Assembly: GCF_023091225.1 (NCBI RefSeq)
Contig: NZ_JAHWXM010000001.1
Span: forward strand, 1,736,001 to 1,800,000
Source: Microbacterium galbinum
Lineage (GTDB): Bacteria; Actinomycetota; Actinomycetes; Actinomycetales; Microbacteriaceae
DNA length: 64,000 bases
Reading direction: 5' to 3'
Below, in pieces: positions 1 through 61,510 of this stretch. The notes under the pieces are model-generated. The model was not told the DNA's origin, did not search any database, and worked only from the letters and a program-made list of their open reading frames with translations. The position numbers and the translations under genes are program-made. The first letter of the stretch is position 1. Every line of letters starts with the position of its first letter.

Positions 1-1223
1 CCGCCGTAGCCGATGAAGCGCGTCTGACGCTCCTTCTCGACGAGCTTGGGCGTCGTGCCGGAGGCGATCAGGGCGTGGAAGCCCGACAACGCTCCGCAGG
101 CGATGGTCACGAACAGGAAGGGGAAGAGCGGACCGGCGAACACCGGCCCCATGCCGTTCTCGCCGAAGATGCTGACGGCGGGCACCGTGATCTCGGGGCG
201 CACCAGGATGATCGCTCCGGCGAGCATCACGATCACACCGATCTTCATGAACGTCGAGAGGTAGTCGCGGGGAGCGAGCAGCAGCCACACCGGGAGCACC
301 GCCGCGATGAAGCCGTAGATGATGATGCCCCACGCGATCGTGGTGCGGTCGAGGTGGAAGATCGCCTGGCCCCACTCGGTGCCGGCGACCCAGCCGCCGC
401 CGATGATCGCGGCCATGAGCAGCACGAACCCGATGATCGAGACCTCGGTGACCTTGCCCGGGCGCAGGAAGCGCAGGTAGATGCCCATGAAGATCGCGAT
501 CGGGATGGTCATCGCCACCGAGAAGACGCCCCAGGGGCTCTCACCGAGGGCGTTGACGACGACGAGCGCGAGGATCGCGACGATGATCAGCATGATCAGC
601 AGCGAGGCGATGATCGCGGCGGTGCCGCCGATCCGCCCGAGTTCCTGGCGGGCCATCTGGCCGATGGTGCGGCCTCCGCGGCGCATCGAGAAGAACAGCA
701 CGGTGTAGTCCTGCACGGCGCCCGCGAGCACGACACCCACGATGATCCAGATCGTGCCGGGCAGGTAGCCCATCTGCGCGGCGAGCACGGGACCGACGAG
801 CGGGCCGGCGCCGGCGATCGCGGCGAAGTGGTGCCCGTAGAGCACGCGGCGGTCGGTGGGGACGTAGTCCTTGCCGTCCTGCTTGACCTCGGCCGGTGTC
901 GCGCGGCGGTCGTCGGGGCGGGTGATGTACTTCTCGATCACCTTCGAGTAGAAGCGGTAGCCGATCAGATAGGTGCAGACCGCGGCGAAGACGAACCAGA
1001 TCGCGTTCACGGTCTCGCCGCGCACGATCGCGAGCATCACCCAGGCGACACCGCCGAGCAGCGCGATCGCCGTCCAGATCAGGATCTTCGGGAGGGTCCA
1101 GCGCCGGCTCTTCTCCTCGTGCTCGGGAGAGAGGGCGACGGGTGGGAGTTTCGGGTCGGTGACGATGATGGGCTCGTCGTCGACGGTTCCGGCGCCGCGT
1201 CGGCGCGACGAAGGTGCGGTCAT
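1..1223 (-). CDS. cstA: Carbon starvation protein CstA, 5' part (runs off window)
   Basis: Integral membrane protein of the CstA family, which imports peptides or pyruvate when carbon is short. Only the first ~407 codons of a protein usually near 700-750 residues are present; the C-terminus lies beyond position 1. The start ATG (1223-1221) follows a GAGGAG Shine-Dalgarno. After a ~45-residue hydrophilic N-terminus come successive membrane helices, and the family hallmark GHHFAAIAGAGPLVGPVLAA is readable about residues 137-156, followed by AVQDYTVLFFSMRRGGR. It is divergent from the uvrA-like gene. Family assignment is secure; the exact substrate (peptide or pyruvate) cannot be told from sequence. 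Confidence 0.93.
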   Translation of the reverse strand, partial: MTAPSSRRRGAGTVDDEPIIVTDPKLPPVALSPEHEEKSRRWTLPKILIWTAIALLGGVAWVMLAIVRGETVNAIWFVFAAVCTYLIGYRFYSKVIEKYITRPDDRRATPAEVKQDGKDYVPTDRRVLYGHHFAAIAGAGPLVGPVLAAQMGYLPGTIWIIVGVVLAGAVQDYTVLFFSMRRGGRTIGQMARQELGRIGGTAAIIASLLIMLIIVAILALVVVNALGESPWGVFSVAMTIPIAIFMGIYLRFLRPGKVTEVSIIGFVLLMAAIIGGGWVAGTEWGQAIFHLDRTTIAWGIIIYGFIAAVLPVWLLLAPRDYLSTFMKIGVIVMLAGAIILVRPEITVPAVSIFGENGMGPVFAGPLFPFLFVTIACGALSGFHALIASGTTPKLVEKERQTRFIGYG

Positions 1224-1406
1224 GGGGTTCTCCTCGGGGTGCGCGTCATTGCGTTCCCCCACGCTAGGAAACGGGCGCGGGGGTCGAGGAGCGGGAGCGG
1301 ATGCCGTGCGACGAGCGGCATCGACGATGCGACGAACGGATGCCGCGGCATCCGTTCCTGAACGGCACCCAGGGCGATGTCCGACGTCGCGGATACACTC
1401 GCGACA

Positions 1407-3956
1407 ATGCCCTCCCCCTCTGAGAACGCACCCGACTCGTTCGTCCGCGTCCGCGGGGCGAACGAGAACAACCTCCGCTCCGTCGACGTCGACATGCCAC
1501 GCGATCGGATCGTCGCGTTCACCGGAGTCTCGGGATCGGGCAAGTCGTCGCTCGCGTTCGGCACCATCTTCACCGAAGCCCAGCGCCGATATCTCGAGTC
1601 GGTGGCGCCGTATGCGAGGCGGCTCATCCAGCAGGGCCACGATCCGCACGTCGAATCGATCTCGGGCCTGCCCCCGGCGGTCGCCCTGCAGCAGCGGCGC
1701 GGCGCGCCCAGCTCGCGATCGAGCGTCGGCACCGTGACGACGCTGTCGAACTCATTGCGCATGCTCTTCTCCCGGGCGGGCACCTTCCCGGAGGGTTTCA
1801 CGACCCGGCTCGACTCCGATGCGTTCTCTCCCAACACCGTCGCCGGAGCCTGCCCGGAGTGTCACGGCATCGGCGTCGCACACACCGTCACCGAGGACTC
1901 GCTCGTGCCCGACCCTTCGCTGAGCATCCGCGAAGGTGCGATCGCCGCCTGGCCGGGCGCGTGGCAGGCGAAGAACCTGCGCGACATCACGATCGCGCTC
2001 GGCTACGACGTCGACGTCCCCTGGCGGGATCTTCCCCGTGCCGATCGCGAGTGGCTGCTCTTCACCGACGAGCAGCCGGTCGTGCAGATCACCCCGCAGC
2101 GCGACCGCGTGGCCAAGCCCTACAACGGCATGTTCTGGAGCGCCAAGAAGTACGTCTTCCATACGCTCTCCGACTCGAAGAGCCAGATGATGCGCACCAA
2201 GGTGCTCCAGTTCGTGCGTTCCGGACCGTGCCCGCTGTGCGGGGGTACGGGGCTGCGGCGCGAGGCCCTGGCCGTCACGTTCGCCGGCCGATCGATCGCC
2301 GAGCTCAACGCTCTCCCGCTGACCGACCTCGCCGACGTCATCCGCCCGACGACGCAGCTCACCGAGGTCACGCCTGCGCTCCCCACCACTCTTTCGGGCG
2401 AGCGCACCGACGTCGCCGTCGCCCTCACGACCGATCTCCTCGCGCGCATCGAGGTGCTCACCGACCTGGGGCTCGGCTACCTGGGGCTGGGCCGAGCGAC
2501 GACCACCCTGTCCCCCGGTGAGATGCAGCGGCTCCGGCTCGCGACGCAGCTGCGGTCGGGACTCTTCGGGGTGGTCTACGTGCTCGACGAGCCCTCGGCC
2601 GGTCTGCATCCCGCCGACGCCGAGCAGCTGCTCGACGTGCTCGCACAGCTCAAACGCTCCGGGAACTCGGTCTTCGTGGTCGAGCACAACATGGACATCG
2701 TCCGGCACGCCGATTGGATCGTCGACGTCGGCCCCGGTGCCGGCGAAGGCGGTGGGCACGTGCTCTACAGCGGCGCGGTCCCGGGGCTCGCCGCTGTCGA
2801 GGCATCCGTCACCCGGCCGTTCCTGTTCCCCGACGCGCATGCGGCATCCGTGACGCGACGCGACCGCCGAGAGGCATCGGCGTGGCTCACTGTCGAGGGC
2901 GTGAGCCTGCACAACCTCGCCGACATCGATGCATCCGTCCCGCTCGGCACCCTCGTCGCCGTGACGGGTGTCTCGGGGTCGGGCAAGTCGACACTCGTCA
3001 GTCGGGTGCTCCCCGAAGTCGTGCGCGCGCACCTGCGCTCGGACGACACCCCCGACGAGATCGACGACACCCCGATCGATGCCGGAGGCGACGACTCCCG
3101 GCCGGCCGAGGCGACGGTGCCGGATGCGGGCGGCGACTCCCTGACCGTGCGCGACGTGCGCGGTCTCGAGCACATCGATCGTCTCGTACGGGTCGACCAG
3201 AAGCCGATCGGCCGCACACCGCGCTCGAACCTTGCGACCTACACGGGTCTGTTCGATGCCGTACGTGCCGTCTTCGCCCGCACCGACCTCGCTCGCGAGC
3301 GCGGGTACGGCGCCGGACGCTTCTCGTTCAACGTCGTCGGCGGGCGCTGCGAGACCTGCCTCGGCGAGGGATTCGTCTCGGTCGAGCTGCTGTTCCTCCC
3401 CGGCAGCTACGGGCGCTGCCCGACGTGCGACGGCGCGCGGTACAACGCCGAAACGCTCGAGGTCACCTACGACGGCCGGACCATCGCCGACGTGCTCGCC
3501 CTCACCGTCGAGCAGGCATCCGAGGCGCTGGCCTCGATTCCGGCGGCGGCGCGCAGCCTGCGTGCTCTCCTCGACGTCGGGCTCGGATACCTCCGCCTCG
3601 GCCAGCCCGCCACCGAGCTCTCCGGCGGCGAGGCGCAGCGCATCAAACTGGCGACCGAGCTGCAGCGCGTGCGCCGTGGCCACACTCTGTATCTGCTCGA
3701 CGAGCCGACCACCGGGTTGCACCCCGCCGACGTGCAACGGCTGCTCGCGCAGCTGCATGCGCTGGTCGACTCCGGCGACACCGTGGTCGTCGTCGAGCAC
3801 GAGATGGACGTCGTCGCCGCGTCGGACTGGGTCATCGACCTCGGGCCCGCCGGTGGCGACGCGGGGGGCCGCGTCATCGCGGCCGGAACCCCGGAGCAGG
3901 TCGCGCAGATTCCCGCGAGCCGCACGGCGCCCTACCTGGCCGAACGCCTGCGCTGA
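1407..3956 (+). CDS. UvrA-like ABC ATPase lacking the UvrB-binding domain (UvrA2 class)
   Basis: Duplex ABC ATPase of the UvrA family, about 849 residues against ~950 for canonical UvrA. Two Walker A motifs (GVSGSGKSS and GVSGSGKST), two signature/Walker B blocks (LSPGEMQRLRLA...DEPSAGLHPAD and LSGGEAQRIKLA...DEPTTGLHPAD) and zinc-module cysteines (CPECHG, CPLCGG, CETCLGEG, CPTCDG) are visible. Between LLFSRAG and GACPECHG there are only ~20 residues, whereas canonical UvrA carries the UvrB-binding domain there, so this is the UvrA2-type paralogue linked in other bacteria to damage or drug tolerance rather than core excision repair. I prefer ATG 1407, 7 nt after a TACACT -10 element (leaderless); an in-frame ATG at 1377 would add 10 residues. 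Confidence 0.88.
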   Translation: MPSPSENAPDSFVRVRGANENNLRSVDVDMPRDRIVAFTGVSGSGKSSLAFGTIFTEAQRRYLESVAPYARRLIQQGHDPHVESISGLPPAVALQQRRGAPSSRSSVGTVTTLSNSLRMLFSRAGTFPEGFTTRLDSDAFSPNTVAGACPECHGIGVAHTVTEDSLVPDPSLSIREGAIAAWPGAWQAKNLRDITIALGYDVDVPWRDLPRADREWLLFTDEQPVVQITPQRDRVAKPYNGMFWSAKKYVFHTLSDSKSQMMRTKVLQFVRSGPCPLCGGTGLRREALAVTFAGRSIAELNALPLTDLADVIRPTTQLTEVTPALPTTLSGERTDVAVALTTDLLARIEVLTDLGLGYLGLGRATTTLSPGEMQRLRLATQLRSGLFGVVYVLDEPSAGLHPADAEQLLDVLAQLKRSGNSVFVVEHNMDIVRHADWIVDVGPGAGEGGGHVLYSGAVPGLAAVEASVTRPFLFPDAHAASVTRRDRREASAWLTVEGVSLHNLADIDASVPLGTLVAVTGVSGSGKSTLVSRVLPEVVRAHLRSDDTPDEIDDTPIDAGGDDSRPAEATVPDAGGDSLTVRDVRGLEHIDRLVRVDQKPIGRTPRSNLATYTGLFDAVRAVFARTDLARERGYGAGRFSFNVVGGRCETCLGEGFVSVELLFLPGSYGRCPTCDGARYNAETLEVTYDGRTIADVLALTVEQASEALASIPAAARSLRALLDVGLGYLRLGQPATELSGGEAQRIKLATELQRVRRGHTLYLLDEPTTGLHPADVQRLLAQLHALVDSGDTVVVVEHEMDVVAASDWVIDLGPAGGDAGGRVIAAGTPEQVAQIPASRTAPYLAERLR

Positions 3957-3964
3957 CCACCGAC

Positions 3965-3982
3965 GCCGTGCTTTTGCACGGC
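3965..3982 (+). terminator. Short hairpin after the uvrA-like gene
   Basis: A perfect 7-bp stem (GCCGTGC / GCACGGC) with a TTTT loop lies 8 nt past the stop codon. There is no T-run after it, so it may be a weak terminator or an RNA-stabilising hairpin. Confidence 0.35.
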
Positions 3983-4013
3983 CCCCTCGGCATCCGCGCA
4001 TCGTGCGCGCAAG

Positions 4014-4019
4014 TAGGCT
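4014..4019 (+). promoter_or_regulatory. -10 element TAGGCT for a leaderless start at 4026
   Basis: TAGGCT lies 6 nt before the GTG start at 4026, the spacing expected when transcription begins at the start codon. The same arrangement recurs before 1407, 30537, 32967, 36389, 47839 and 55331. Confidence 0.5.
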
Positions 4020-4025
4020 GGAACC

Positions 4026-4571
4026 GTGGCCCGAACCTCTGTCCTGCCGACCCGCGTGCTGCTGATCTGCGCCGCGATCGGCGTCGCGACCGGCCTCATC
4101 GGAGGCATCGCCGGATGGGTCACGCCGATCCTGCTCGCAAGCCCCCTGCTCTTCCTCTACGGGCTCGTGCTCGGCTCGCACGTGCTGCCGGGGATCATCG
4201 CGCAGGAGGTGCTGCGGCGTCCGTTCGTGGCGCTCATCACGCACCTGATCGCCGCCCTCGTCTCGAGCGCGTTCAACCCGGCCTGGGCGCTGCGCTTCAT
4301 CGGCACGGCGCTGCTGTTCGGCGCGATCCAGGAGGGCGTCGCGGCCCTCACCCGCTACCGCGCCTGGGGCGCCTGGCGCTTCTTCATTTCGGCGGCGCTG
4401 ATCGGCGTCGTCGTGGCCGTCGCCGTGTTCTTCGCCGCGCACCTCGGCACGATGCCGCTGTGGGCGCAGATCACGTACCTCGCGATCTCGGTGCTCGGCC
4501 CCATCGCGTGGACCGCGATCGGCCTCGCGGTCGGCACGGCACTCAGCCGCGCCGGCGTCGCCCGTCGCTGA
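4026..4571 (+). CDS. ECF transporter S component, YkoE-like (first copy)
   Basis: Small polytopic membrane protein of 181 residues with about five to six hydrophobic segments, of the type annotated as ECF (energy-coupling factor) substrate-binding component related to YkoE. S components bind a small molecule such as a vitamin and associate with the EcfA ATPase and EcfT coupling protein, both encoded downstream. The GTG start sits 6 nt after a TAGGCT -10 element. It is separated from the ATPase gene by a strong palindrome and an iron-box-like site, so it may be transcribed separately. B. subtilis YkoE is linked to thiamine precursors, but no TPP riboswitch is visible upstream. Substrate unknown. 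Confidence 0.75.
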   Translation: MARTSVLPTRVLLICAAIGVATGLIGGIAGWVTPILLASPLLFLYGLVLGSHVLPGIIAQEVLRRPFVALITHLIAALVSSAFNPAWALRFIGTALLFGAIQEGVAALTRYRAWGAWRFFISAALIGVVVAVAVFFAAHLGTMPLWAQITYLAISVLGPIAWTAIGLAVGTALSRAGVARR

Positions 4572-4609
4572 GCGCGTCGTTCCCGGCATCCGTCGCGCTC
4601 GACTCTCCG

Positions 4610-4667
4610 TGAGGGGTCAAGACACGCCTCAGCGGATGCCGGGCGTGAGGCGTGTCTTGACCCCTTA
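4610..4667. repeat. Large intergenic palindrome, GGGGTCAAGACACGCC family
   Basis: Inverted repeat with 22-nt arms 4610-4631 and 4646-4667 (only one G-T wobble) and a 14-nt loop. The arm word GAGGGGTCAAGACACGCC recurs at 33514-33531 with an imperfect partner arm, so this is a dispersed repeat. It could also act as a bidirectional transcription terminator between the first S-component gene and the ATPase operon. Confidence 0.8.
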
Positions 4668-4693
4668 CGGACTCACGAATGCACGTCGCGAGG

Positions 4694-4712
4694 TCAGGTA
4701 AGGCTCGGCTAA
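4694..4712 (+). promoter_or_regulatory. DtxR/IdeR-like iron box upstream of the ECF ATPase operon
   Basis: TCAGGTAAGGCTCGGCTAA matches 14 of 19 positions of the DtxR/IdeR consensus (TTAGGTTAGGCTAACCTAA). It lies 54 nt before the GTG of the dual ATPase. A similar box with 16/19 matches precedes the heme genes at 61424. It suggests repression by iron; binding is not shown here. Confidence 0.6.
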
Positions 4713-4718
4713 GTTAGA

Positions 4719-4745
4719 GACGTACGTTCCACCGAAGACGTACGT
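4719..4745. promoter_or_regulatory. Two GACGTACGT palindromes 18 bp apart
   Basis: GACGTACGT occurs at 4719-4727 and 4737-4745, between the iron box and the start codon of the ATPase gene. Each core ACGTACGT is self-complementary, and the 18-bp spacing puts both on nearly the same helix face, which fits an operator for a second regulator. The regulator is unknown. Confidence 0.4.
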
Positions 4746-4766
4746 CCACCGACCCGGGGTCTCGCC

Positions 4767-6476
4767 GTGCGCCCATCCGCGCCTCTTCTCCGCGTGCGTG
4801 ATGTCTCTCTCACCCACGCGGATGCCGCGCACCCCTCCCCGCGCGACGTGACCTTCGACATCGACCCGGGCGAGGTCGTGCTGCTGCTCGGCCCCTCGGG
4901 CTCGGGCAAGTCGACGCTCACGCTCGCGCTGAACGGGCTCATCCCGCACGCGCTTCCCGCCACCATGACCGGCACGGTCGAGGCGGGCGGGGTCGGCACC
5001 GCCGACGCGCAGACCTCCGAGCTGAGCACGCGGGTCGCGATGGTCTTCCAAGACCCGGATGCCCAGATCGTCACCGGAACCCTCTACGACGAGGTCGCCT
5101 TCGGCCCCGAGAACCTGCGCCTGCCCGTCGCTGAAGTCACCGCCCGCACCGAAGACGCCCTGCGCCGCGTCGGGCTATGGGAGCGCCGCGACGACAACCC
5201 CGACCGGCTCTCGGGCGGCGGCCGCCAGCGCCTCGCGATCGCCTGCGCCCTCGCCATGGGGTCGCCGTTGATCGTGCTCGACGAGCCGACCGCGAACCTC
5301 GACCCGCAGGGCATCGATGACGTCTACGCCGCCCTCGCCGACGTGATCGCCGCGGGCGACCGGGCGATCCTCCTCGTCGAACACAACCTCGACGCCGCGA
5401 TGGGATTCGTCACCCGCACGATCGTGCTCGACCGCGAGGGGCGCGTCGCCTACGACGGCCCGGTCGCCGAGATCCTCCGTGCGCACACCGACGAGCTCGT
5501 CGCGATGGGGGTGTGGCTGCCCGCGGCGACGCTGGCGGCGCTGCGACTGCGCGACGACGGCATCCGTCTCGACCCCCTGCCCCTGACACCCGAGGAGCTG
5601 GCGGCGCAACTGCCCCCGGCATCCACCCCCGCGAGCGCGGCTGCGACCGCGACCGCGACCGACCCGACGACGGATGCCGCGCCCTCGGGCGAGGCGATCA
5701 TCCGGGCGCGCGGGCTCACCGTGCGCCGGGGCCGCACCGAGATCCTGCACGGCATCGACCTCGATCTCACGCCCGGCAGCCTCACCGCCATCGTCGGCGC
5801 CAACGGGGCCGGTAAGACCACGCTCATCCAGGCGCTCGCCGGCGTCGTTCCGCCGCCGAAGCGGCAGGTCGACGTCGACGGCATCGATCCCGGGCGGGCC
5901 GCTCCCCGCGACCTCGCCGCCCGCATCGGCTTCGTGTTCCAGAACCCCGAGCATCAGTTCATCGCGCACACGGTGTTCGACGAGCTCGCGCACGGGCTGA
6001 CCCTTCGACAGGCTCAGGGGCCGCAGGGCGAGCAGATCACGGATGCCGAGGTCACCGAGCGCGTGACCGAGATGCTCGAGCGCTTCGGCCTCGCGCACAA
6101 GGCCGACGTGCATCCGTTCCTGCTGTCGGGCGGCGAGAAGCGCCGCCTGTCGGTGGGCACCGCGCTGATCACCCGCCCCCGCGTTCTCGCGCTCGACGAG
6201 CCGACCTTCGGCCAGGATCGCGCGCGGGCGACCGAACTGCTCGCGCTGCTGCAGAGTCTGCGCGCCGAGGGCACGACGATCGTGATCGTCACCCACGACC
6301 TGCAGCTCGTCGCCGAGCACACGACGCACACCGTGATCCTCGCCGACGGGCGCGTGCACGCGAGCGGACGCACGGCCGATCTCTTCCGCGACGAGCAGAC
6401 GTTCACCTCGGCGGGGCTCCGCCTGCCCGCCCTGCAGCGGGTGCTCGCGGCGCACGCACGGGGGGCCGAGGCATGA
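4767..6476 (+). CDS. ECF transporter dual ATP-binding protein (EcfA-EcfA' fusion, YkoD-like)
   Basis: Fused double ATPase of 569 residues powering an ECF importer. First half: Walker A GPSGSGKST, Q-loop FQDPDAQIV, signature LSGGGRQRLAIA, Walker B LIVLDEPTANLDP, switch His in VEHNLD. An Ala/Thr-rich linker near residues 285-310 leads to the second half: GANGAGKTT, FQNPEHQF, LSGGEKRRLSVG, LALDEPTFGQD. The GTG start follows the DtxR-like box and the two GACGTACGT sites. Its stop overlaps the start of the T component by 4 nt (ATGA). Within the second half, 6001-6020 is a copy of the dispersed word CCCTTCGACAGGCTCAGGGG, read as LRQAQGP: a repeat insertion that keeps the frame. Confidence 0.88.
   Translation: MRPSAPLLRVRDVSLTHADAAHPSPRDVTFDIDPGEVVLLLGPSGSGKSTLTLALNGLIPHALPATMTGTVEAGGVGTADAQTSELSTRVAMVFQDPDAQIVTGTLYDEVAFGPENLRLPVAEVTARTEDALRRVGLWERRDDNPDRLSGGGRQRLAIACALAMGSPLIVLDEPTANLDPQGIDDVYAALADVIAAGDRAILLVEHNLDAAMGFVTRTIVLDREGRVAYDGPVAEILRAHTDELVAMGVWLPAATLAALRLRDDGIRLDPLPLTPEELAAQLPPASTPASAAATATATDPTTDAAPSGEAIIRARGLTVRRGRTEILHGIDLDLTPGSLTAIVGANGAGKTTLIQALAGVVPPPKRQVDVDGIDPGRAAPRDLAARIGFVFQNPEHQFIAHTVFDELAHGLTLRQAQGPQGEQITDAEVTERVTEMLERFGLAHKADVHPFLLSGGEKRRLSVGTALITRPRVLALDEPTFGQDRARATELLALLQSLRAEGTTIVIVTHDLQLVAEHTTHTVILADGRVHASGRTADLFRDEQTFTSAGLRLPALQRVLAAHARGAEA
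6001..6020 (+). repeat. Dispersed repeat word inside the ATPase gene
   Basis: CCCTTCGACAGGCTCAGGGG is the same word found in intergenic repeats at 9491, 14878 and 47735 (some inverted). Here it lies in frame in the second nucleotide-binding half, between the Q-loop and the ABC signature, and encodes LRQAQGP. Confidence 0.8.
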
Positions 6477-7294
6477 CCGCCACCGCGTTCGACCCGTACG
6501 CGACGATGACCGTCACCTCGCGGCATCAGTTCCTCTACGCCCTCAACCCGCTCGCGAAGGTGGCGGGATTCGCCCCGGCGATGATCTTCCTGGTGTTCGT
6601 GCGCGACCTCGCCACTCCGGCCGCGTTCCTGCTGCTCGCCTATGTGCTGCTGCTCGTCGGCGCCCGCCTCACCTGGCGTCTGCTCCTGCTGCTCGCGGTG
6701 CTGCCCGTCGGCATGGCCGTGATCGGCGTGAGCTTCTCGCTCTGGGTCGACACCGCGCTCGTCGGTGACACGACCCCGGTGCTGCGGATCGGCGACTGGA
6801 CCCTCTACAGCGGAGCACTGATGATCGGTTTCGCCACGGCGCTGCGCCTCGGCGCGATCATCTCGCTCGCCCTCATCGGCGGGCTCACCACCAGCGGACC
6901 CGACCTCGTGCGGGCGAGCGTGCAGCAGCTGCGGGTTCCGTACCGCATCGGCTACACGGCGTTGGCCGCGTTCCGCTTCGTGCCGCGCTTCGGCTACGAG
7001 CTCTCGGTGATCCGCGCAGCCCATCGCGTGCGAGGACACCATGGCGGCAACGGCCCCTTCTCGCGCATCGCACGCGGATGGGGGTACATCGTCCCGCTGC
7101 TCGCCGGGGCCATCCGGCACGCCGAGCGCGTCGCCCTCGCGATGGACTCCCGGGCCTTCGGCGCACACCCCACCCGCACCGAGCGGCACCTGGTGCCGTT
7201 CCGCACGCGAGACACGATCTTCGTCGCGCTGAGTCTCGCGGCATCCGCGGTGATCCTCCTCGTGTTCTCCCCCTGGCAACCGCCCTCCCTCTGA
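6473..7294 (+). CDS. ECF transporter T component (EcfT / YkoC-like)
   Basis: Transmembrane coupling protein of 273 residues linking the ATPase to the S components. Several hydrophobic helices occupy roughly residues 25-130 and 245-265. Cytoplasmic helices carry the Ala-Arg-Gly type signatures expected in EcfT: AAHRVRGHHGG near residue 185 and SRAFGAHPTRT near residue 226. It overlaps the ATPase by 4 nt (ATGA) and is followed after 10 nt by the siderophore-interacting protein. This supports one operon 4767-8803. Confidence 0.85.
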   Translation: MTATAFDPYATMTVTSRHQFLYALNPLAKVAGFAPAMIFLVFVRDLATPAAFLLLAYVLLLVGARLTWRLLLLLAVLPVGMAVIGVSFSLWVDTALVGDTTPVLRIGDWTLYSGALMIGFATALRLGAIISLALIGGLTTSGPDLVRASVQQLRVPYRIGYTALAAFRFVPRFGYELSVIRAAHRVRGHHGGNGPFSRIARGWGYIVPLLAGAIRHAERVALAMDSRAFGAHPTRTERHLVPFRTRDTIFVALSLAASAVILLVFSPWQPPSL

Positions 7295-7304
7295 AAGGCA
7301 CCCG

Positions 7305-8180
7305 ATGGCGTTCAGCAAGCTCGTCAAGCCCGAGACGCAGGAACTCGTGCACCTCACCGTGCTGCGCTCCGAGCGTCTCGCCCCGCACTGGATGCGCGTG
7401 ACCCTCGGTGGCGGTGAGATCGAGAAGTTCCGGCCGATGGGCTTCGATCAGTGGTTCCGCCTGTTCCTGCCGATCGGCGGTGACGCCGGACTCGACCGCG
7501 TGCCCGCCAAGGCCAACAAGATGTTCGGGTACCTGAAGTTCCTGCGCATCCCCGACGGCGAGCGCCCCGTGATGCGCAACTACAGCGTGCGCGCGTACCG
7601 ACCGGCCGAGGGCGATCGCGGCGCCGAGATCGACGTCGACTTCGTGCTGCACGGATCGGCCGCCGAGGGCACCGCCGGACCCGCATCGCGGTGGGCCGAG
7701 ACCTGCACCCCGGGCGAGCACGTGCTCATCATCGACGAGGGCCTCACCTTCAACCCCGAGCGCGGTGTCGACCGGGTGCTGCTCGTGGGCGACGAGACGG
7801 CCCTGCCGGCGATCGCCTCGATCGCGGCATCCGTTCCCGCGGGGGCCATCGGCACCGCGATCATCGAGGTGCCGTCGCTCGACGACGCCCTCGACTTCCC
7901 CCACCCCGAGGGGCTCTCGGTCGAGTGGGTGCTGCGCCCGCACGACGAGCAGCCGGGAGCCCTCGCGCTGCAGCGGGTCGCCGAGATCGACCTGCCGGCC
8001 GAGACGTTCCACACCTACGCGGCCGGAGAGCAGTCGCTCGCTTCGGGTGTGCGCAAGCTGCTCGTCGGCGAGCGCGGCGTCGACAAGAACACCGTCAGCT
8101 TCTGCGGCTACTGGAAGATCGGTGCCGCCTCCCCGACGTCGAAGGCCGCTCGCGAGGCCGCCGCGGAGCCGCTCGGATGA
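7305..8180 (+). CDS. Siderophore-interacting protein (FAD-dependent ferric reductase, ViuB/SIP family)
   Basis: Cytosolic flavoprotein of 291 residues that in this family reduces ferric siderophores or other ferric chelates to release Fe2+. The FAD-binding signature RNYSVRAYRP is near residue 89, followed by the GPASRWA phosphate-binding stretch. The NAD(P)H domain has VGDETALPAIASIAASVPAG, and the family C-terminal SFCGYWKIG is present. It sits in the ECF operon between the T component and the second S component (ATGA overlap with the latter). A ferric reductase in this place, plus the iron box in front, suggests that the ECF system imports an iron chelate, heme or a cofactor needed under iron starvation. 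Confidence 0.9.
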   Translation: MAFSKLVKPETQELVHLTVLRSERLAPHWMRVTLGGGEIEKFRPMGFDQWFRLFLPIGGDAGLDRVPAKANKMFGYLKFLRIPDGERPVMRNYSVRAYRPAEGDRGAEIDVDFVLHGSAAEGTAGPASRWAETCTPGEHVLIIDEGLTFNPERGVDRVLLVGDETALPAIASIAASVPAGAIGTAIIEVPSLDDALDFPHPEGLSVEWVLRPHDEQPGALALQRVAEIDLPAETFHTYAAGEQSLASGVRKLLVGERGVDKNTVSFCGYWKIGAASPTSKAAREAAAEPLG

Positions 8181-8803
8181 ACGGGGCGGATACCGGTTCG
8201 TCGGCTGCCGGTTCGGGCGCGGATGCGGCGACGGAAGTGGATGCCGTGGCGACGCGGCCCGCGCGCGGACGGGTGCGCTTCCCGACTGCCCTGCTGCTGA
8301 CCTGCGCGGCGCTCGGCGTCGCCGGGGCGGTTCTGCTCGCGCCGATGAACTGGCTCTCGACCCTGCTCACCGGACCACTGCCCTTCCTCGGGATGGGCCT
8401 CGCCGGACTGTGGCTGCTGCCCTCGGTGATCGCGCTGCGTTTGCTCAAGCGTCCGCTCGTCGGCTTGCTCGTCGCGCTGATCGCGGGGCTCGTCATGGTG
8501 CCGTTCTCGGGGTACGGCTTCGGCAGCGTCGCCACGAACCTCTGGTGGGCGGCGTTCACCGAGCTGCCGTTCCTGTTCGTGCTGTGGCGCTACTGGGGCA
8601 CCTGGATGCACTACGTCGGAGCGGTCGCCGTCGCGATCGTCTACCCGATCTCGGCGTGGGCCTGGTTCGACCTGGGCAGCTTCGGCCTCGGGTACCAGGC
8701 GGCGTTCTTCGCCGTCACGATGGCCAGCTGCGTCGCGGCGACGGCCCTCGGCATCCTGATCGCGGATCGCCTACGCCGCGCCGGCGTCGGCGGACGCCGC
8801 TGA
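8177..8803 (+). CDS. ECF transporter S component, YkoE-like (second copy)
   Basis: Membrane protein of 208 residues; its hydrophobic core (from about residue 35) resembles the S component at 4026-4571 in length, helix pattern and C-terminal LRRAGVGGRR (compare LSRAGVARR). It has an extra ~30-residue Ala/Thr/Asp-rich N-terminus. ATG 8177 overlaps the stop of the siderophore-interacting protein (ATGA), so it belongs to the iron-boxed operon and is the likelier partner for that import function. Substrate unknown. Confidence 0.75.
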   Translation: MNGADTGSSAAGSGADAATEVDAVATRPARGRVRFPTALLLTCAALGVAGAVLLAPMNWLSTLLTGPLPFLGMGLAGLWLLPSVIALRLLKRPLVGLLVALIAGLVMVPFSGYGFGSVATNLWWAAFTELPFLFVLWRYWGTWMHYVGAVAVAIVYPISAWAWFDLGSFGLGYQAAFFAVTMASCVAATALGILIADRLRRAGVGGRR

Positions 8804-8829
8804 CGCGCGGCGTTAATGCCGGACGACGA

Positions 8830-9201
8830 TCACAGTGCGAGGTGCATGCGAAGGCACTCGTCGACCTCTCCCATCAGTTCGGCAGGCACCCATCCCACCG
8901 GCCGAACAATGCGCGAGGTCGCGATCGTGCGGACTTGTTCGATCTGTACCTTCGAATCGACGCTGAGCCCGGTGCCCGCCGCAGGCAACAGAACCTGAAA
9001 TGGGAGGACTCGCGCGACATTGGACGTGACCGGCGCGACCGTTACCGTCGCGCGCGTACTGCGTACAGCCGCGGTGTTGGCCGTGTTGTTGCTGACGACA
9101 ACGGCAGGACGGGTCTTCGCGACCTCGGCCCCGACAACCGGGTCGAAGGCGACCAGCACGATCTGGCCGCGCCGCAGCAGCGTGGTCGACGGCGCACTCA
9201 C
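8830..9201 (-). CDS. MazF/PemK-type toxin (endoribonuclease)
   Basis: Small protein of 123 residues with the MazF/PemK fold signature: RRGQIVLVAFDPVVG at the N-terminus, KTRPAVVVSNN, then VAPVTSN, and a QIEQVRTIATSRI block before the C-terminus. Family members cleave mRNA at short sequences and are held by a cognate antitoxin. I start it at GTG 9201, which overlaps the antitoxin stop as GTGA; a longer frame upstream would run antisense-free but into the antitoxin gene. Base composition is lower in GC than its neighbours, which fits a mobile two-gene cassette. Confidence 0.85.
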   Translation of the reverse strand: MSAPSTTLLRRGQIVLVAFDPVVGAEVAKTRPAVVVSNNTANTAAVRSTRATVTVAPVTSNVARVLPFQVLLPAAGTGLSVDSKVQIEQVRTIATSRIVRPVGWVPAELMGEVDECLRMHLAL

Positions 9202-9419
9202 GCTGAGGCGAGTCCGTCGCTGGCAGCCGTGTCCCATTCGTCGTCGTAGCCTTCAGCGAATGCTTCGGCGTAGGCATCTGCCAGACGGCTCTCGCGCAAG
9301 AGCGACACAGCATCCTGAACCGCCGCCGACCGGGTGGCGTATTTTCCCATCAAGACCTCCGCGTCGAGGAACGCTACGTCACTCGCACTGAGGCTGAGGC
9401 TGACCTTGCTGTTCGTCAT
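9198..9419 (-). CDS. Antitoxin of the MazF-like toxin (ribbon-helix-helix type)
   Basis: Seventy-three residues: an N-terminal beta-strand and helices (KVSLSLSASDVAFLDA, then YATRSAAVQDAVSLLRES) as in ribbon-helix-helix DNA-binding antitoxins, and an acidic C-terminal tail (AEAFAEGYDDEWD) that would occupy the toxin. It is first in the pair and overlaps the toxin by 4 nt. It probably represses its own promoter, in the 9420-9470 region where AT-rich sequence (TAGCAAGGATATTGCC) is seen. Confidence 0.8.
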   Translation of the reverse strand: MTNSKVSLSLSASDVAFLDAEVLMGKYATRSAAVQDAVSLLRESRLADAYAEAFAEGYDDEWDTAASDGLASA

Positions 9420-9484
9420 GCTTCAATGCTACTCGGGTAGCAAGGATATTGCCACCTCCTAGCATTCGCGCTTGAGACGTCGCG

Positions 9485-9578
9485 CGGGGCCCTTCGACAG
9501 GCTCAGGGACCCAGCTCGAGGGACCGGGGCGGCCCTTCGTCTCGTCGCTGCGCTCCTCGCTCAGGAACCGGCCGAGGG
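9485..9578. repeat. Dispersed repeat cluster between antitoxin and acyl-CoA dehydrogenase
   Basis: Holds one CCCTTCGACAGGCTCAGGGACC word (9491-9511) and one half of the larger palindrome family, CCCTTCGTCTCGTCGCTGCG followed by CTCCTCGCTCAGGAACCGG (9533-9571). Both families recur at 14701-15144, 44985-45229 and 56387-56480. Confidence 0.75.
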
Positions 9579-10742
9579 TCAGCGCTTGCCGGCGATCTGG
9601 CGGCCGACGATCTCGCGCATGATCTCGTTCGTGCCGCCGTAGATGCGGTGCACGCGGGCGTCGAGGAACGCGCGGGCGATCGGGTATTCGGTGATGTAGC
9701 CGTAGCCGCCGTGCAGCTGCACGCCCTGATCGAGCACCTCCCACTCGCGCTCGGTGGCCCAGAACTTGACCTTCGCGGCCTCCTCGGCCGACAGCTTGCC
9801 CTGAGAGTACGCGAGCAGCGCCCGATCGATGTACGCCCACAGCGCGTCGACCGTCGTGGCCATGTCGGCGATCGCGAAGCGGCTGTTCTGGAAGTCGATG
9901 ATCCGCTCGCCGAACGCTTCGCGGTCCTTCGTGTAGGCGACGGTCCAGTCGAGGGCGGCCTGCGCGGCCGCGGCACCCGCGACGCCGATCGACAGGCGCT
10001 CGAGCGGCAGGTTCATCATGAGCTGCACGAAGCCCTTGCCCTCGACTCCGCCGATGAGGTTCTCGTCGGGAACGAACACGTCGCTGAACGACAGCTCTGC
10101 CGTGTCGTGGCCCTGGAAGCCCATCTTGTGCAGCTTCTTGCCGTGGTCGAAGCCCTCCATGCCGTTCTCGATGAGCACGAGGCTGAAGGCATCCGGTCGG
10201 TTGCCCTCACCGGTCTTCACGAACGTGACGACCAGGTCGGCAGTCGCGCCCGACGAGATGAACGTCTTGGCACCGTTGACGATGTACCCGCCGTCGACCT
10301 TCTTGGCAGTGGTCTTGATGCCGCGCAGGTCGCTTCCCGCGCCGGGCTCGGTCATCGCGAGCGCGCCGACGACCTCGCCGGTCGCCATCCGCGGCAGCCA
10401 TTTCGACTTCTGCTCCTGGGTGCCCATGTGCACGAGGTACGGAACCGCCAGGTCGTCCTGGATGCCGAAGGCCCCGGCGAGCGAGCCCGCGCCGGCGGCG
10501 ATGACCTCTTCGTTCACGACCGCGCGGAAGCGGTAGTCCTGCAGCATCCCGGCCCCGCCGAACTCCTCGGGAACCGACAGGCCGATGATCCCGGCCTCGC
10601 CGGCCGCGCGCATGGTGTCGCGGTCGACCTCGCCCGCGGCATCCCACCGCTCGATGTCCGCACCCGTCACGTGGCGCTTGACGAAGTCCTTGACGAGGTC
10701 GCGGAAGGCCTCGTGATCCTCTTCATAGATGTCGCGTTCCAT
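9579..10742 (-). CDS. Acyl-CoA dehydrogenase (long-chain type layout)
   Basis: Flavoenzyme of 387 residues introducing the alpha,beta double bond in acyl-CoA. Family blocks: GALAMTEPGAGSDLRGI (FAD/substrate), INGAKTFISSG-like VNGAKTFISSGATADL, QLHGGYGYITEYPIARAFLD and IYGGTNEIMREIVGRQI. The MCAD-type catalytic Glu of the YEGT motif is Gly here (IYGGTNE). As in long-chain and isovaleryl enzymes the base is expected in the earlier helix, and NLPLERLS offers that Glu. Start ATG 10742 follows a GGAGGACGCGC Shine-Dalgarno. It stands alone; its substrate chain length is not decided by the context. Confidence 0.92.
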   Translation of the reverse strand: MERDIYEEDHEAFRDLVKDFVKRHVTGADIERWDAAGEVDRDTMRAAGEAGIIGLSVPEEFGGAGMLQDYRFRAVVNEEVIAAGAGSLAGAFGIQDDLAVPYLVHMGTQEQKSKWLPRMATGEVVGALAMTEPGAGSDLRGIKTTAKKVDGGYIVNGAKTFISSGATADLVVTFVKTGEGNRPDAFSLVLIENGMEGFDHGKKLHKMGFQGHDTAELSFSDVFVPDENLIGGVEGKGFVQLMMNLPLERLSIGVAGAAAAQAALDWTVAYTKDREAFGERIIDFQNSRFAIADMATTVDALWAYIDRALLAYSQGKLSAEEAAKVKFWATEREWEVLDQGVQLHGGYGYITEYPIARAFLDARVHRIYGGTNEIMREIVGRQIAGKR

Positions 10743-10883
10743 TGCGCGTCCTCCTGAACGTGTCGGCGTCTTTGCTCCCGCGATTCTAGGGCGATGACGG
10801 ATGCCGCGACAGGACGTTGTGGGAATGCATCCCGCGTTTCGTGGTACTGGGTACCGCGATTGTGGGATGCCTCCGAGCGTCGC

Positions 10884-11825
10884 TCAGGGCAGGTAGTCGG
10901 GCGCGGCAGGAAGCCCGAAGAACTCCTCGAGCGTGTGGAACCCGCCCGCCTGGTAGGCCGCGGCGAGGTCGCGCCCCACGTAGCGCAGGTGCCACGGCTC
11001 GGGAGCGTAGCCGGTGATGCCGGAGCCCCCGTCCTCGTAGCGCACGATGAACCCGTACTCCCAGGCGTGGGCGGCGACCCAGTCGCTCTGCGTGGTGCCG
11101 CCGAACCCGTCGAGCCCGCCGCACCCCAGACCGCACGCGACGACGTCGACCGCGAGGCCGGTCTGGTGCTCCGAGTGTCCGGGGCGCGCGGATCCGGCAT
11201 CCGCCCCGGCCTGCCCCTGGTCGCGCACGTGCGACTCGTAGGTCGTGACCTGCAGGCCGTACGAGCGGTAGCCGTTGTTCGCACCGAGGCGCCCGACCCC
11301 GGCCTCGATGGCCGCGTTAGCCATGTCGCCGACCGCGGTCGCGACGTCGGTGCGCACCTGCCCGGATGCCGTGGTCATCTGCAGCGGCACGTCGGCGAGG
11401 GCGCCGGGCGCGTAGTCGGCGGGGTCGAGCGGTCGCGCCTTGTTGACGACGACCCACACCCGCGCGGGGTCGGAGAGCGAGATGCACGGCGCGTTGCCCG
11501 CCACGACGGCGGCGCGGAACGCCTCGCCCCCACCGAAGCCGGCGATGGTGGCCGCGTCGTCTCCGGCGGCGAGCGACTCCTGCACGGATGCCTCGGCGCA
11601 CGGGTCGGCGGCCGGGGTGGAGCCGACGTCGACCGAGGGCACCTGCACGACCGCGACCGGCTCGGGCATCCGCGAGGCTTCGGGCGTCGAGGATGCCGGC
11701 GCCGAAGCGAGAGAGAGGAGGATGCCGATGGCGGTCACCGCGACGCCGATCGGCAGGGCGGGACCACGGATCGGGGAGCGCGGAGCCGCATGCTGAGCGT
11801 GCGGCGATTCGGGCATGATCTCCAT
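10884..11825 (-). CDS. D-alanyl-D-alanine carboxypeptidase, VanY family (M15B)
   Basis: Zinc peptidase of 313 residues trimming peptidoglycan stem peptides outside the membrane. The metal/catalytic motifs are readable: PGHSEHQTGLAVDV (first His and the Asp) and EPWHLRYVG (Glu and His). NNGYRSYGLQV precedes them as in VanY/DacB. A hydrophobic stretch at about residues 27-45 (GVAVTAIGILLSLASA) is a signal peptide or anchor. Alternative start ATG 11816 would remove three residues. An Ala-rich ~130-residue region lies between anchor and catalytic domain. Confidence 0.88.
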   Translation of the reverse strand: MEIMPESPHAQHAAPRSPIRGPALPIGVAVTAIGILLSLASAPASSTPEASRMPEPVAVVQVPSVDVGSTPAADPCAEASVQESLAAGDDAATIAGFGGGEAFRAAVVAGNAPCISLSDPARVWVVVNKARPLDPADYAPGALADVPLQMTTASGQVRTDVATAVGDMANAAIEAGVGRLGANNGYRSYGLQVTTYESHVRDQGQAGADAGSARPGHSEHQTGLAVDVVACGLGCGGLDGFGGTTQSDWVAAHAWEYGFIVRYEDGGSGITGYAPEPWHLRYVGRDLAAAYQAGGFHTLEEFFGLPAAPDYLP

Positions 11826-11876
11826 TCTGCCCCGATCGCCGCGCGGTCACCGATATGCATTCACAGGCAGGTGGAG

Positions 11877-11898
11877 ATTCATCATACGTATGAGTAAT
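11877..11898. promoter_or_regulatory. Operator-like dyad A, before the dehydrogenase operon
   Basis: TCATACGTATGA (11882-11893) is a perfect 12-bp palindrome with further ATT...AAT matches at the flanks. It lies 35 nt before the GTG at 11928. It resembles, in position and in CAT/ATG arms, dyads near 24302 and 25185, which suggests one GntR-type regulator. Confidence 0.55.
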
Positions 11899-11927
11899 CT
11901 GGAACTCTGCGAGAAGAGGAGCAATCA

Positions 11928-12950
11928 GTGCTGACTGTGAATTACGTAGGCGATCGCACGCTGGACGTGCGCACGGCCGATCAGACCGAACCGCGCGACG
12001 GAGAGGTGCGGATCCGCGTCGCCTACACCGGTCTCTGCGGCACCGACCTGCACATCCTGCACGGCGACATGGACGCCCGCGTCGAGCGCCCGCTCGTCTT
12101 CGGACACGAGATGAGCGGCACTATCGACGCCCTCGGCGCCGGGGTCACCGGTTGGAGCGTCGGCGACAAGGTCACCGTCATGCCCCTCGACTGGGACGGC
12201 ACCTGCCCCGCCTGCCTCGCCGGCAACGAGCACATCTGCCAGAACCTGAACTTCATCGGCATCGACTCCCCCGGCTCGCTGCAGGGGCTGTGGAACGTTC
12301 CGGCCGAGACCCTCCTCGCACTTCCCGCCGACATCCCCCTCGATGACGCCGCGCTCGTCGAACCGGTCGCCGTCGCGGTGCACGACGTGCGGCGCTCCGA
12401 CCTCACCGCCGGGCAGAAGGCCGTCGTGATCGGCGGCGGCCCGATCGGCACGCTCATCGCCACCGTCGCCCGGCACACCGGTGCCGAGGTCGTCGTGATC
12501 GAGATCGATGCGCAGCGCCGCGCCCAGGCCGAAGATCTCGGATTCACGACGCTCGACCCCTCGGCATCCGACCAGGTCGCCTGGGTCGAGGAGTGGACCG
12601 CGGGCACCGGGGCCGACGTCGTGTTCGAGGTCTCGGGCGCGGCCACCGCAGTGCGCGGCATGACGGCGCTCGCGAAGGTGCGCGGCACGATCGTCGTCGT
12701 CGCCATCCACCCCACCCCGCGCGAGGTCGACCTGCAGCGCGTGTTCTGGCGCGAGCTGCGCCTGCTCGGCGCACGGGTCTACCAGCGCGCCGACTTCGAG
12801 ACCGCGATCGAGCTCCTCGCCGACGGCGTGATCCCCACCGACCGGGTCATCACGCGCATCGTGCCGCTCGCCGAGACCGCCGACGCCTTCGCCGAGCTCG
12901 AAGCGGGGCGCGCGATGAAGATCCTCGTCGACGTGCAGGCCGGCGCATGA
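11928..12950 (+). CDS. Zinc-dependent medium-chain sugar/polyol dehydrogenase
   Basis: MDR-superfamily oxidoreductase of 340 residues, close in layout to threonine, sorbitol and idonate dehydrogenases. Catalytic zinc ligands: Cys in GLCGTDLH, the GHEMSG His-Glu block; structural-zinc cysteines are reduced (CPACLAGNEHICQN retained). The nucleotide fold is VVIGGGPIGTLIA with acidic residue in VVVIEID, favouring NAD. GTG start with GAGGAG upstream. First of three genes (SDR and aldo-keto reductase follow with ATGA and TGATG overlaps), under operator dyad A. It probably oxidises a sugar, polyol or sugar acid of the island's pathway; substrate not determinable. Confidence 0.85.
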   Translation: MLTVNYVGDRTLDVRTADQTEPRDGEVRIRVAYTGLCGTDLHILHGDMDARVERPLVFGHEMSGTIDALGAGVTGWSVGDKVTVMPLDWDGTCPACLAGNEHICQNLNFIGIDSPGSLQGLWNVPAETLLALPADIPLDDAALVEPVAVAVHDVRRSDLTAGQKAVVIGGGPIGTLIATVARHTGAEVVVIEIDAQRRAQAEDLGFTTLDPSASDQVAWVEEWTAGTGADVVFEVSGAATAVRGMTALAKVRGTIVVVAIHPTPREVDLQRVFWRELRLLGARVYQRADFETAIELLADGVIPTDRVITRIVPLAETADAFAELEAGRAMKILVDVQAGA

Positions 12951-56750: not shown

Positions 56751-59700
56751 TCAGACCTCGGTGGTCGTGACGGACGACTCGGCCGTCGAGCGGCTGCGGC
56801 GTCCGATGAGCACGCCGCCCGTGCCGACGAGGGCCACGACCACGAGTCCGCCGACGATCCAGACCCAGACCGGCACGCCGCCCTGCTCGTCGGCGACCTC
56901 GGTGACGGCGGTGACCGCGGTGGTCGCCTCCGACTCGGTCTCCTCGTCGTCGGCCGGGGCCGCGACTCCGCAGTCCGCACCGACGGGGATGACGGCGCTG
57001 ACCGGGTCGAGCGCCTCGCCCGCGGCGTAGGTGCCGAAGGCGGCGGCACCGGCCTCGGTGAGCGTCGACGGGATGCCGTCGAGCGTGATCACTCCGTCGA
57101 CCGCGCTGACGTCGGCCAGCGGGAACTCGGCGAACCGCACGTCCTTCAGGTCGATGGCCTCGCCGGACTGCGTGGTGCCGGTGACGTCGACCACGATGTA
57201 GCCGGTGTCGCCCGCGAGCTCGAGGCGGAAGTTCGCCAGCGTCGTGTTCAGCGCGCCGTCGTGGCCCGTGAAGTTGATGCTGCCGCCGTAGGTCACGAGG
57301 CCCGCGTCGCTCTCGTCGTCGTACGAGCCGGAGCCGTTCGACCACACGAAGTCGGGGTACTGGTAGACCACGTCGGTGAGCGTCCAGCCGCCCTTCGCGA
57401 TGCCCTCGATGTAGGTGCGGAACGACTCCTTGTATCCCCAGTTCAGGCTCGCGCCCTCGACGGTGCAGGCGCCGATCACGACGGTCTCACGGGCCAGCGT
57501 GAAGACGAGTCCGCGGGTCACCGAGCCCTGGAGGGTGAGCGTGTGCTCACCGTTCTCGAGCGTGGCGGGCAACGTGCCGGTCCACGTGGCGACACCGTTG
57601 GCGTCGGCATCCACCGTGCCGAGCAGGACGGGCGTCGAATACACGACGACCTGGATGTCCTTCTCGTTCGGCTCGAAACCGGATGCCGTGATCGTCGCCG
57701 TCTTGCCCGACTGCAGGGCGGTGAGGTTCTCGTCGTCGATCTCGATACCGGTGGTCGCCGGAGGCGTGGCCGGGAGGGCCGCCTTCTTGACGACCGCCGC
57801 GGCCGCCGCGACGGTGCCGGTCGATCCGCTCGGAGCCGCGGCTGCGGAACCGATCGTGAACGTGACCGGGCTCAGAGTCGTCGAGTACCCCTGGAACACC
57901 TGGTTGACGCCGGCGGAGGTGATGGATGCCGGGGCCGACGTGTAGGTGACCGCGCCGTTCGCCGTGGTCTTGCCCGCACGCGACAGGTCGAGCGTCGCGA
58001 ACGGCACCTGGCTTCCGCCGTTGGTCACGTAGAGCGTCGCCGCATTCGCCGAGGTGAAGCGGATCTGCGGGTTGGCGACCGTGACATCGAGGATGCCGCC
58101 GTGACCGGTGAACCGGACCGCGCCCACGTACGAGACCGCGCCGAGGCCGGTCGCGGGGTCGTAGGTGCTGCCGGTCGCCTGTCCGAACTGGAACAGTCCG
58201 TCGGCGCGCGTGGCACCACCGGTGACCTCGATCGCGCCCTTGGCGATGTTGCCCGTGATGTAGCTCAGGAACGAGCTCGACACGTCCCAGCGCAGCGATC
58301 CACCGGGGACGGTCGCGACCGGAGCGGTCGGAGTGACCGGGGGCTTCGGGGGCTTCGGGGGCTGCGGCGGCTTCGGGCCGAAGATCTTGTCCCACTGCGC
58401 CTCGGTGACCGTCACCGTGCTGCGGGCGTAGATCGTCGATGCGGTCGGCATCGTGTGCTGCTGCCAGCTGATGACCTCGTACGTCTTGGTGCGGTCGAGC
58501 GCGCTCGCCGCCGCCGTGAGGTCGACCGAGTAGCCGCCGCCCGAGACGCTGCGCACGAACTGCATCGCGATGAAGCCGCCCTCGGCGGTGACGTCCGCCT
58601 CGGTGCCCTTCTCGATGAGCGCGACGTACGCACCCGTGATCGAGCCGTGCTTCGAACCGGTCGCCGTGACGGTCAGGCCGTTCTGGGCGGTCGCGGACGT
58701 CACCGCGGTCGTCACCTTCGGGCCGTCCAGGGGACCGAACACCGCATCCCACTGCGCATCCGTCACGTTCACGGCCTGACGCGCGTAGATCGTCGACGCG
58801 GTCGGGAGGGTGTGCTGCTGCCAGACGATCACCTCATACGACTTCGACCGGTCAAGACCCGCCTTCGCCGCCACCAGATCGACACTGAACGCACCACCGG
58901 ACACGTTGCGCACGAACTGCATCGCCGCGAACCCACCACCGGCGGTCACATCCGCCTCGGTACCCGCTTCGATCAGCGCCACATACGCACCCGTGATCGG
59001 CCCCAGGTTCGATCCCGACGCAGCGACCGTCAGACCCTCGGTCGACGCCACCGACACCGCACCCGACACGGTCGGGCTGCTCGGTGGGAACACCGTGTTC
59101 CACTGAGCATCCGTCACGTTCACGGCCTGACGCGCGTAGATCGTCGACGCGGTCGGGAGGGTGTGCTGCTGCCAGACGATGACCTCATACGACTTCGACC
59201 GGTCAAGACCCGCCTTCGCCGCCACCAGATCAACGCTGAACGCACCACCGGACACGTTGCGCACGAACTGCATCGCCGCGAACCCACCACCGGCGGTCAC
59301 ATCCGCCTCGGTACCCGCCTCGATCAGCGCCACATACGCACCCGTGATCGAACCCAGCTGGGAGCCTCCGGCCGTGACGGTCAGACCGTCCTCGGTCGCC
59401 GTCTTCACCGTCGCGGTCGCGACGGGTGCCTCGGCGTAGTTCAGGGCGACGCTGCGCTCCTGCTCGGCGTTCACGACGCCGCCGGCGGCGTAGGTGTAGA
59501 CACCGTACGCACCGGGCTTGGCCGCGGAGTCCTTCAGCGTGAGCGTCGCGGTGAACGTGCCGTCCGCCGCGATGTCGACCCACTGACTGCGGATGGTCGG
59601 CTGGAATGCCTCCGGAACCTGGTTCAGCACGGTCTCGGAGAGCGCCCAGAGCTGAGAGCCGATCGAGCGGTTCGCAGAAGGAGCGGATGCCGACGGCTTC

Positions 59701-61352: not shown

Positions 61353-61423
61353 GGTTTCTCTCCGGGCCCCGGGGTGCGCGGGCACGCACGCCGGCGGTGC
61401 CGCTATGCAGTCGGGCGAAGGGA

Positions 61424-61442
61424 TTAGGTTAGGCTGCACTAA
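61424..61442 (-). promoter_or_regulatory. DtxR/IdeR-like box 1 between htaA-like gene and hmuT
   Basis: TTAGGTTAGGCTGCACTAA matches 16 of 19 positions of the DtxR/IdeR consensus. It lies 72 nt before the HtaA-protein start and 68 nt before hmuT, so it probably serves the HtaA promoter. Confidence 0.8.
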
Positions 61443-61491
61443 GCAGCTACCGTTTCTGAGCGTAGGCTGTGCGCGAGGCTCGCGTCAAGTT

Positions 61492-61510
61492 TTAGGATAG
61501 CCTTGCCTTA
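61492..61510 (+). promoter_or_regulatory. DtxR/IdeR-like box 2 abutting the hmuT start
   Basis: TTAGGATAGCCTTGCCTTA matches 15 of 19 consensus positions and ends on the first base of the hmuT start codon. It contains TAGGAT, a likely -10 element, so repressor binding would cover the promoter. Confidence 0.75.

Follow-up and report, generated by a model that had tools for sequence, protein, structure and literature searches.

Energy-coupling factor (ECF) transporters are known for vitamins, for nickel and cobalt and, recently, for heme. A well-described example is YkoEDC of Bacillus subtilis, a group I ECF transporter for thiamine/HMP with the gene order ykoE-D-C, whose S component YkoE is available as PDB entry 5edl. 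Others have come under the control of iron. SiaFGH of Streptococcus pyogenes carries heme. The siaFGH genes are annotated as ECF S, T and A components and are derepressed together with the regulon of MtsR, a protein of the DtxR family (PMC6593403). LhaSTA of Staphylococcus lugdunensis is iron-regulated and heme-specific (PMC7299338), and for chloroplasts, too, an ECF module that takes up metal has been proposed (PMC6828968).

Here we analyze a related operon in a stretch of 64,000 nucleotides from Microbacterium galbinum, referred to as the window, which spans G000:C1:1736001-1800000 of the own genome. It encodes a YkoE-type ECF module together with a siderophore-interacting protein (SIP) and is preceded by an iron box. 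We propose, with a probability of roughly 0.55, that the iron-starvation regulon has acquired a YkoEDC-type group I transporter, which brings in a small molecule carrying iron; a ferric chelate or xenosiderophore is the most likely candidate.

Organization of the operon

The window contains a complete group I ECF set, with two PF09819 proteins, one PF02361 protein and the domains TIGR04520 and TIGR04521 encoded together. On the forward strand, a YkoE-like S component (S1, 4026-4571, PF09819) is followed by a DtxR/IdeR-type iron box of two overlapping 19-mers (4694-4717) and by a dual ECF ATPase with two ABC domains in one protein (4767-6476; TIGR04520 with 352 bits and TIGR04521 with 351.6 bits, both above cut-off). 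Then come, on the same strand, an EcfT/CbiQ/YkoC-like T component (6473-7294; PF02361, 7.7e-25), the SIP, a siderophore-interacting FAD protein and probable cytoplasmic ferric-chelate reductase (7305-8180), and a second YkoE-like S component (S2, 8177-8803; PF09819, 6.6e-10). The original prediction had these genes joined by overlaps, which holds for ATPase/T and SIP/S2 (4 bases each), while T and SIP are separated by a 10-base gap. It had also taken 8177-8803 as the only S component and must be corrected on this point, as S1 lies just outside the range it covered.

Relatives of the operon were collected through SIP, yielding 80 closely related Microbacterium loci (the best 80 of 97), a sample that by its ascertainment is uninformative on how often SIP is present. 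ATPase, T and SIP are found by tblastn in all 80, in several pieces in one of them (L097). S1 occurs in 74/80 and S2 in 58/80, counting one S2 that is a 28-residue fragment and including L046 and L087, the two loci whose contigs end inside the operon. Three loci have S2 without S1 (L064, L069, L073) and one has neither (L068).

A UvrA-like gene (1377-3956) lies directly 5' of S1 and has a non-overlapping best match in L035 only, among the 80 loci with 6 kb flanks. Just 3' of S2, on the minus strand, a PemK/MazF-like toxin gene (8830-9237) has relatives in 16/80 Microbacterium loci. Between S1 and the iron box sits a near-perfect hairpin (4608-4672, -52.2 kcal/mol), a member of a dispersed palindromic repeat family with 25 matches in the genome, counting itself and both strands.

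A conserved iron box upstream of the ECF genes

The box TCAGGTAAGGCTCGGCTAA at 4694-4712 matches 14 of the 19 positions of TTAGGTTAGGCTAACCTAA, which we take to be the DtxR consensus, and overlaps a 13/19 match starting at 4699; the predicted 14/19 box before the dual ATPase gene is thus recovered as described. A matrix was built from 27 sites picked by their match to the consensus. Of these, 4 come from the own genome and 23 from SIP loci (other genera, together with the second site of L149 and with L153); no ECF-SIP operon contributed a site. With this matrix the operon box reaches 21.0 bits and ranks third among the 19-mers of the window, the fourth reaching 9.8 bits. The top two (27.7 and 24.3 bits) are the boxes at 61424 and 61492, located between an htaA-type heme-binding gene on the minus strand and the divergent Peripla_BP_2 and FecCD importer genes hmuT and hmuU (56751-63695). 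Since HtaA, the Peripla_BP_2 protein and FecCD were all confirmed by Pfam, this locus is a fair in-window positive control, even though both of its boxes contributed to the 27-site matrix. With as many as 3 mismatches allowed, the genome contains the exact box sequence of the strain a single time.

Conservation was scored in the 78 Microbacterium loci that include the region upstream of the ATPase, as the contigs of L046 and L087 do not reach it. A box of at least 13/19 precedes the ATPase in 74/78 loci and one of at least 14/19 in 63/78; among the 934,696 other positions in these loci, the corresponding numbers are 4 and 0. The best score is 12 in 4 loci, 13 in 11, 14 in 17, 15 in 34, and 16 in 12. 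In the box-anchored alignment of these related loci, the 24 box columns carry 1.25 bits per column and the two flanks 0.27 and 0.33. Conservation in related genomes, which had been suggested as a check of the box, is therefore borne out.

A second sample was ascertained through the T protein instead. Searching 345 genomes of the class gave 17 genomes. Ten of them, counting the own one, are Microbacterium and 5 belong to a second genus of the family, while one represents a different family of the order and one is more distant. Around and before the ATPase start, the box scores 10 bits or more in 14/17 and 15 bits or more in 12/17, whereas none of 210,478 other positions reaches 10 bits; the three genomes below this value are L187 (6.8 bits), L191 and the distant L183 (none in either). 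An adjacent SIP is present in 7/17 genomes, and of the 10 without it 7 carry a box that scores 17 bits or higher. An iron link owed to SIP alone can thus be set aside, and it is the ECF genes to which the link pertains. A chance box is likewise ruled out, by the Microbacterium conservation against background and by the T-ascertained sample.

The genome has two DtxR-family genes, one of which adjoins Nramp, the other being located at G000:C2:230135. A manganese box was also considered. In the Nramp/MntR region, however, the best match scores a mere 8.3 bits (L175) against 21.0 for the operon box, and the latter is therefore retained as an iron box. At the level of sequence comparison, it is confirmed as a genuine conserved operator-type site upstream of the ECF operon, and we consider it very probable that the unit ATPase-T-SIP-S2 is regulated by iron.

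The upstream region of S1 looks different. The scan for an iron box in the 250 bases upstream of S1 gave at best 11/19 in 74 loci, with L064, L069, L073 and L087 left out because S2 was matched there instead of S1. As S1 precedes the box and has none of its own, this more widely kept S gene may be expressed independently of iron, with ATPase-T-SIP-S2 being induced by starvation. At about -146 to -169 of S1, a TTGCGT-spacer-ACGCTA motif was observed in 8 of up to 74 S1 loci (L039, L040, L053, L057, L058, L066, L075, L110), a possible operator of another regulator.

The siderophore-interacting protein and its partners

The SIP family works on ferric siderophores, from which it removes the iron. 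The protein of the window is 99% identical to a SIP of M. galbinum. It has both family domains, FAD_binding_9 (PF08021) and SIP (PF04954), and its best sequence relatives in the PDB are 2gpj and ViuB (8c4l), the SIP domain of IrtA being more distant. Five SIP matches are found in the own genome. Four of them were examined, including that of the window, and the other three (L138, L152, L153) each adjoin a FecCD permease. Because these three are paired with FecCD importers, the ECF of the window probably does the same job, namely import of a ferric chelate followed by its reduction in the cytoplasm.

Looking beyond the genus, we fetched 31 SIP loci of other genera (L119-L137, L140-L151). ATPase, T and S lie beside SIP in four of them (L123, L129, L135, L136), and 26/31 have no adjacent ATPase, T or S. 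L119 contains an S2-SIP pair only, without adjacent ATPase, T or box. Within about 150 bases upstream of SIP, a box of 13/19 or better is present in 24 of the 26 loci lacking the ECF (background 4 in 320,202 positions), and the remaining two (L124, L125) reach 12. In L135 (genome G127, 1830-3593), three PF09819 YkoE-like S genes adjoin one ECF module and SIP, and a single iron box (16/19) is located between two divergent S genes. The box of L136, before the S gene, is weaker (13/19, 15.8 bits).

Two S components with the fold of YkoE

The S component at 8177-8803 had been called YkoE-like, in agreement with its PF09819 match and with its predicted structure. The model of S2 (pLDDT 93.8) has 5edl as best PDB match with a TM score of 0.84, and in the fold search YkoE 5edl comes first for both S1 and S2. 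No other match has an E-value of 0.001 or below, the weaker ones including other ECF S components as well as unrelated membrane proteins. A PDB sequence search gave no match for S2 up to E 10 and for S1 only 5edl at E 3.6.

The binding site was compared in YkoE numbering. The thiamine contacts of YkoE are Tyr46, Trp49, Glu77, Gln95 and Asp131; S1 retains 0/5 of them (75 rows) and S2 1/5, namely Trp49, which is present in 58/59 rows. Position 95 of S2 is Trp in 57/59 rows, and a change to Trp at this position abolished thiamine binding in YkoE (PMC5037267). S1 has His at positions 49 and 70 in 75/75 rows (His52 and His73 of the window protein), residues that could ligate heme or hold a metal chelate. 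In the proteins of other genera, position 49 is Trp or Tyr.

What is transported?

Among iron, heme and chelate, the neighbourhood favours a ferric chelate, a choice that sequence alone cannot narrow. The arguments are that SIPs take iron off siderophores, that the other SIPs of the genome are paired with FecCD, and that heme has its own genes. On this basis we place a ferric chelate as substrate somewhat above even odds. The earlier proposal of an importer for iron, heme or a ferric chelate accordingly stands in its first part, as the box is conserved and stays with the ECF genes, and its choice of substrates is not narrowed further. A search of the genome for an IucA/IucC (NIS) siderophore synthetase gave no match, which fits the use of siderophores made by others; NRPS products remain compatible. 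Against the proposed reading count the adjacency of SIP in just 7/17 T-sample genomes, the 3/17 without a 10-bit box, the S2-SIP pair of L119 that stands without ATPase, T or box, the location of S1 ahead of the box, by which the more conserved S gene may escape iron control, and the fact that known iron-regulated ECFs carry heme.

This last point makes heme a live rival, as iron regulates the ECF in the case of both LhaSTA and SiaFGH. The operon could accordingly encode an importer for heme or another iron porphyrin, functionally like these two, with SIP serving general cytoplasmic iron reduction. The invariant histidines of S1 would suit such a ligand and a heme oxygenase is encoded in the genome (G000:C1:2459254), but the SIP family acts on ferric siderophores, the HtaA/HmuTU genes with their own iron boxes are already present about 53 kb away, the operon includes neither a heme-degrading enzyme nor heme-locus neighbours, and S2 as well as the proteins of other genera have an aromatic residue where S1 has His49. 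We consider heme an unlikely substrate on balance. Improbable as well is an ECF under iron control that would carry some other metal or a cofactor, such as cobalt, nickel, manganese or a flavin, and be needed more when iron is short. The known substrates of ECF transporters speak for it, as do the 10/17 T-sample genomes without adjacent SIP, from which it follows that SIP is not obligatory; the recurrence of SIP adjacency in several genera and the weak match of the Nramp/MntR region speak against it.

Thiamine/HMP was rejected as the main reading. S1-ATPase-T corresponds to ykoE-D-C in gene types and their order, the S fold is that of YkoE, and S2 keeps Trp49. The genome, however, has a separate YkoEDC elsewhere under a TPP riboswitch (RF00059, 56.1 bits), while no TPP riboswitch was detected in positions 1-12000 of the window, as had been noted before, or in the 11 of 80 relatives checked. 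The own riboswitch-controlled YkoE itself keeps 2/5 contacts, Trp49 and Gln95, so that residue loss alone is not decisive. With the separate YkoEDC and most contacts lost in S1 and S2 taken together, an importer of thiamine or HMP whose iron regulation is incidental is highly improbable. Apart from riboswitches, an HDV-like (CPEB3) ribozyme match was seen at L118:155-234 (G000:C1, near 2664155); its 27 bits (E 0.00089) fall short of the gathering score, which is 35.

Proposed mechanism

For the import of a ferric chelate, the following path can be envisaged. With iron, a DtxR/IdeR-type repressor would bind the box at 4694-4717 and shut off ATPase-T-SIP-S2; without iron, these genes would be expressed. 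S1 or S2 would then bind the ferric chelate outside and dock on T and the dual ATPase, and ATP hydrolysis would carry the chelate inward, as expected from the mechanism of the ECF family. In the cytoplasm, SIP would reduce Fe(III) in keeping with its family function and iron would be freed. In loci with two or three S genes, the S proteins probably confer different specificities on the module. The full picture would be that of an ECF-type ferric-siderophore importer, a vitamin ECF of YkoEDC type converted into an iron-regulated module. It would take up intact ferric chelates, using between one and three YkoE-like S proteins that can replace one another, and would have a cytoplasmic reductase in the operon. 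This picture is a tentative one to which we give slightly less than an even chance.

If true, an ECF that carries chelates and comes with its own reductase would extend the range of these transporters by a further class of substrates and illustrate how an S fold for vitamin binding can be put to a new use. It would also provide a defined iron-uptake route for Microbacterium, including the siderophore-requiring strain JG-9. Where PF09819 proteins of this group are labelled with cobalt or thiamine, the label probably names the wrong substrate.

Comparison with known systems

Within the open-licence PMC literature, the matches listed include neither an ECF transporter for siderophores nor a YkoE-derived, iron-regulated ECF with a siderophore reductase in its operon. 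One paper among them, on Alteromonas, mentions a siderophore-interacting protein, energy-coupling factor and iron.

With YkoEDC of B. subtilis the operon shares the YkoE S fold, but it differs in having an iron box in place of the TPP riboswitch, a SIP, a second S gene, and thiamine contacts that are mostly lost. With LhaSTA and SiaFGH, compared here by their excerpted descriptions only, it has in common an ECF under the control of iron; as described there, those systems differ in being governed by a Fur box or MtsR, in having heme-locus neighbours and in the absence of SIP from the operon. The FecCD-type importers with SIP (L138, L152, L153) resemble it in that an importer is paired with an FAD-binding SIP protein, and mycobacterial IrtAB is an importer of exporter fold with a SIP domain. 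Unlike these, the ECF of the window has membrane-embedded S components, rather than a binding protein and FecCD permease or an importer with exporter fold. Iron-regulated ECFs are hence already known, and what appears to be new, judged from sequence and within the open-licence PMC literature, is a YkoE-derived ECF that has a siderophore reductase in its operon.
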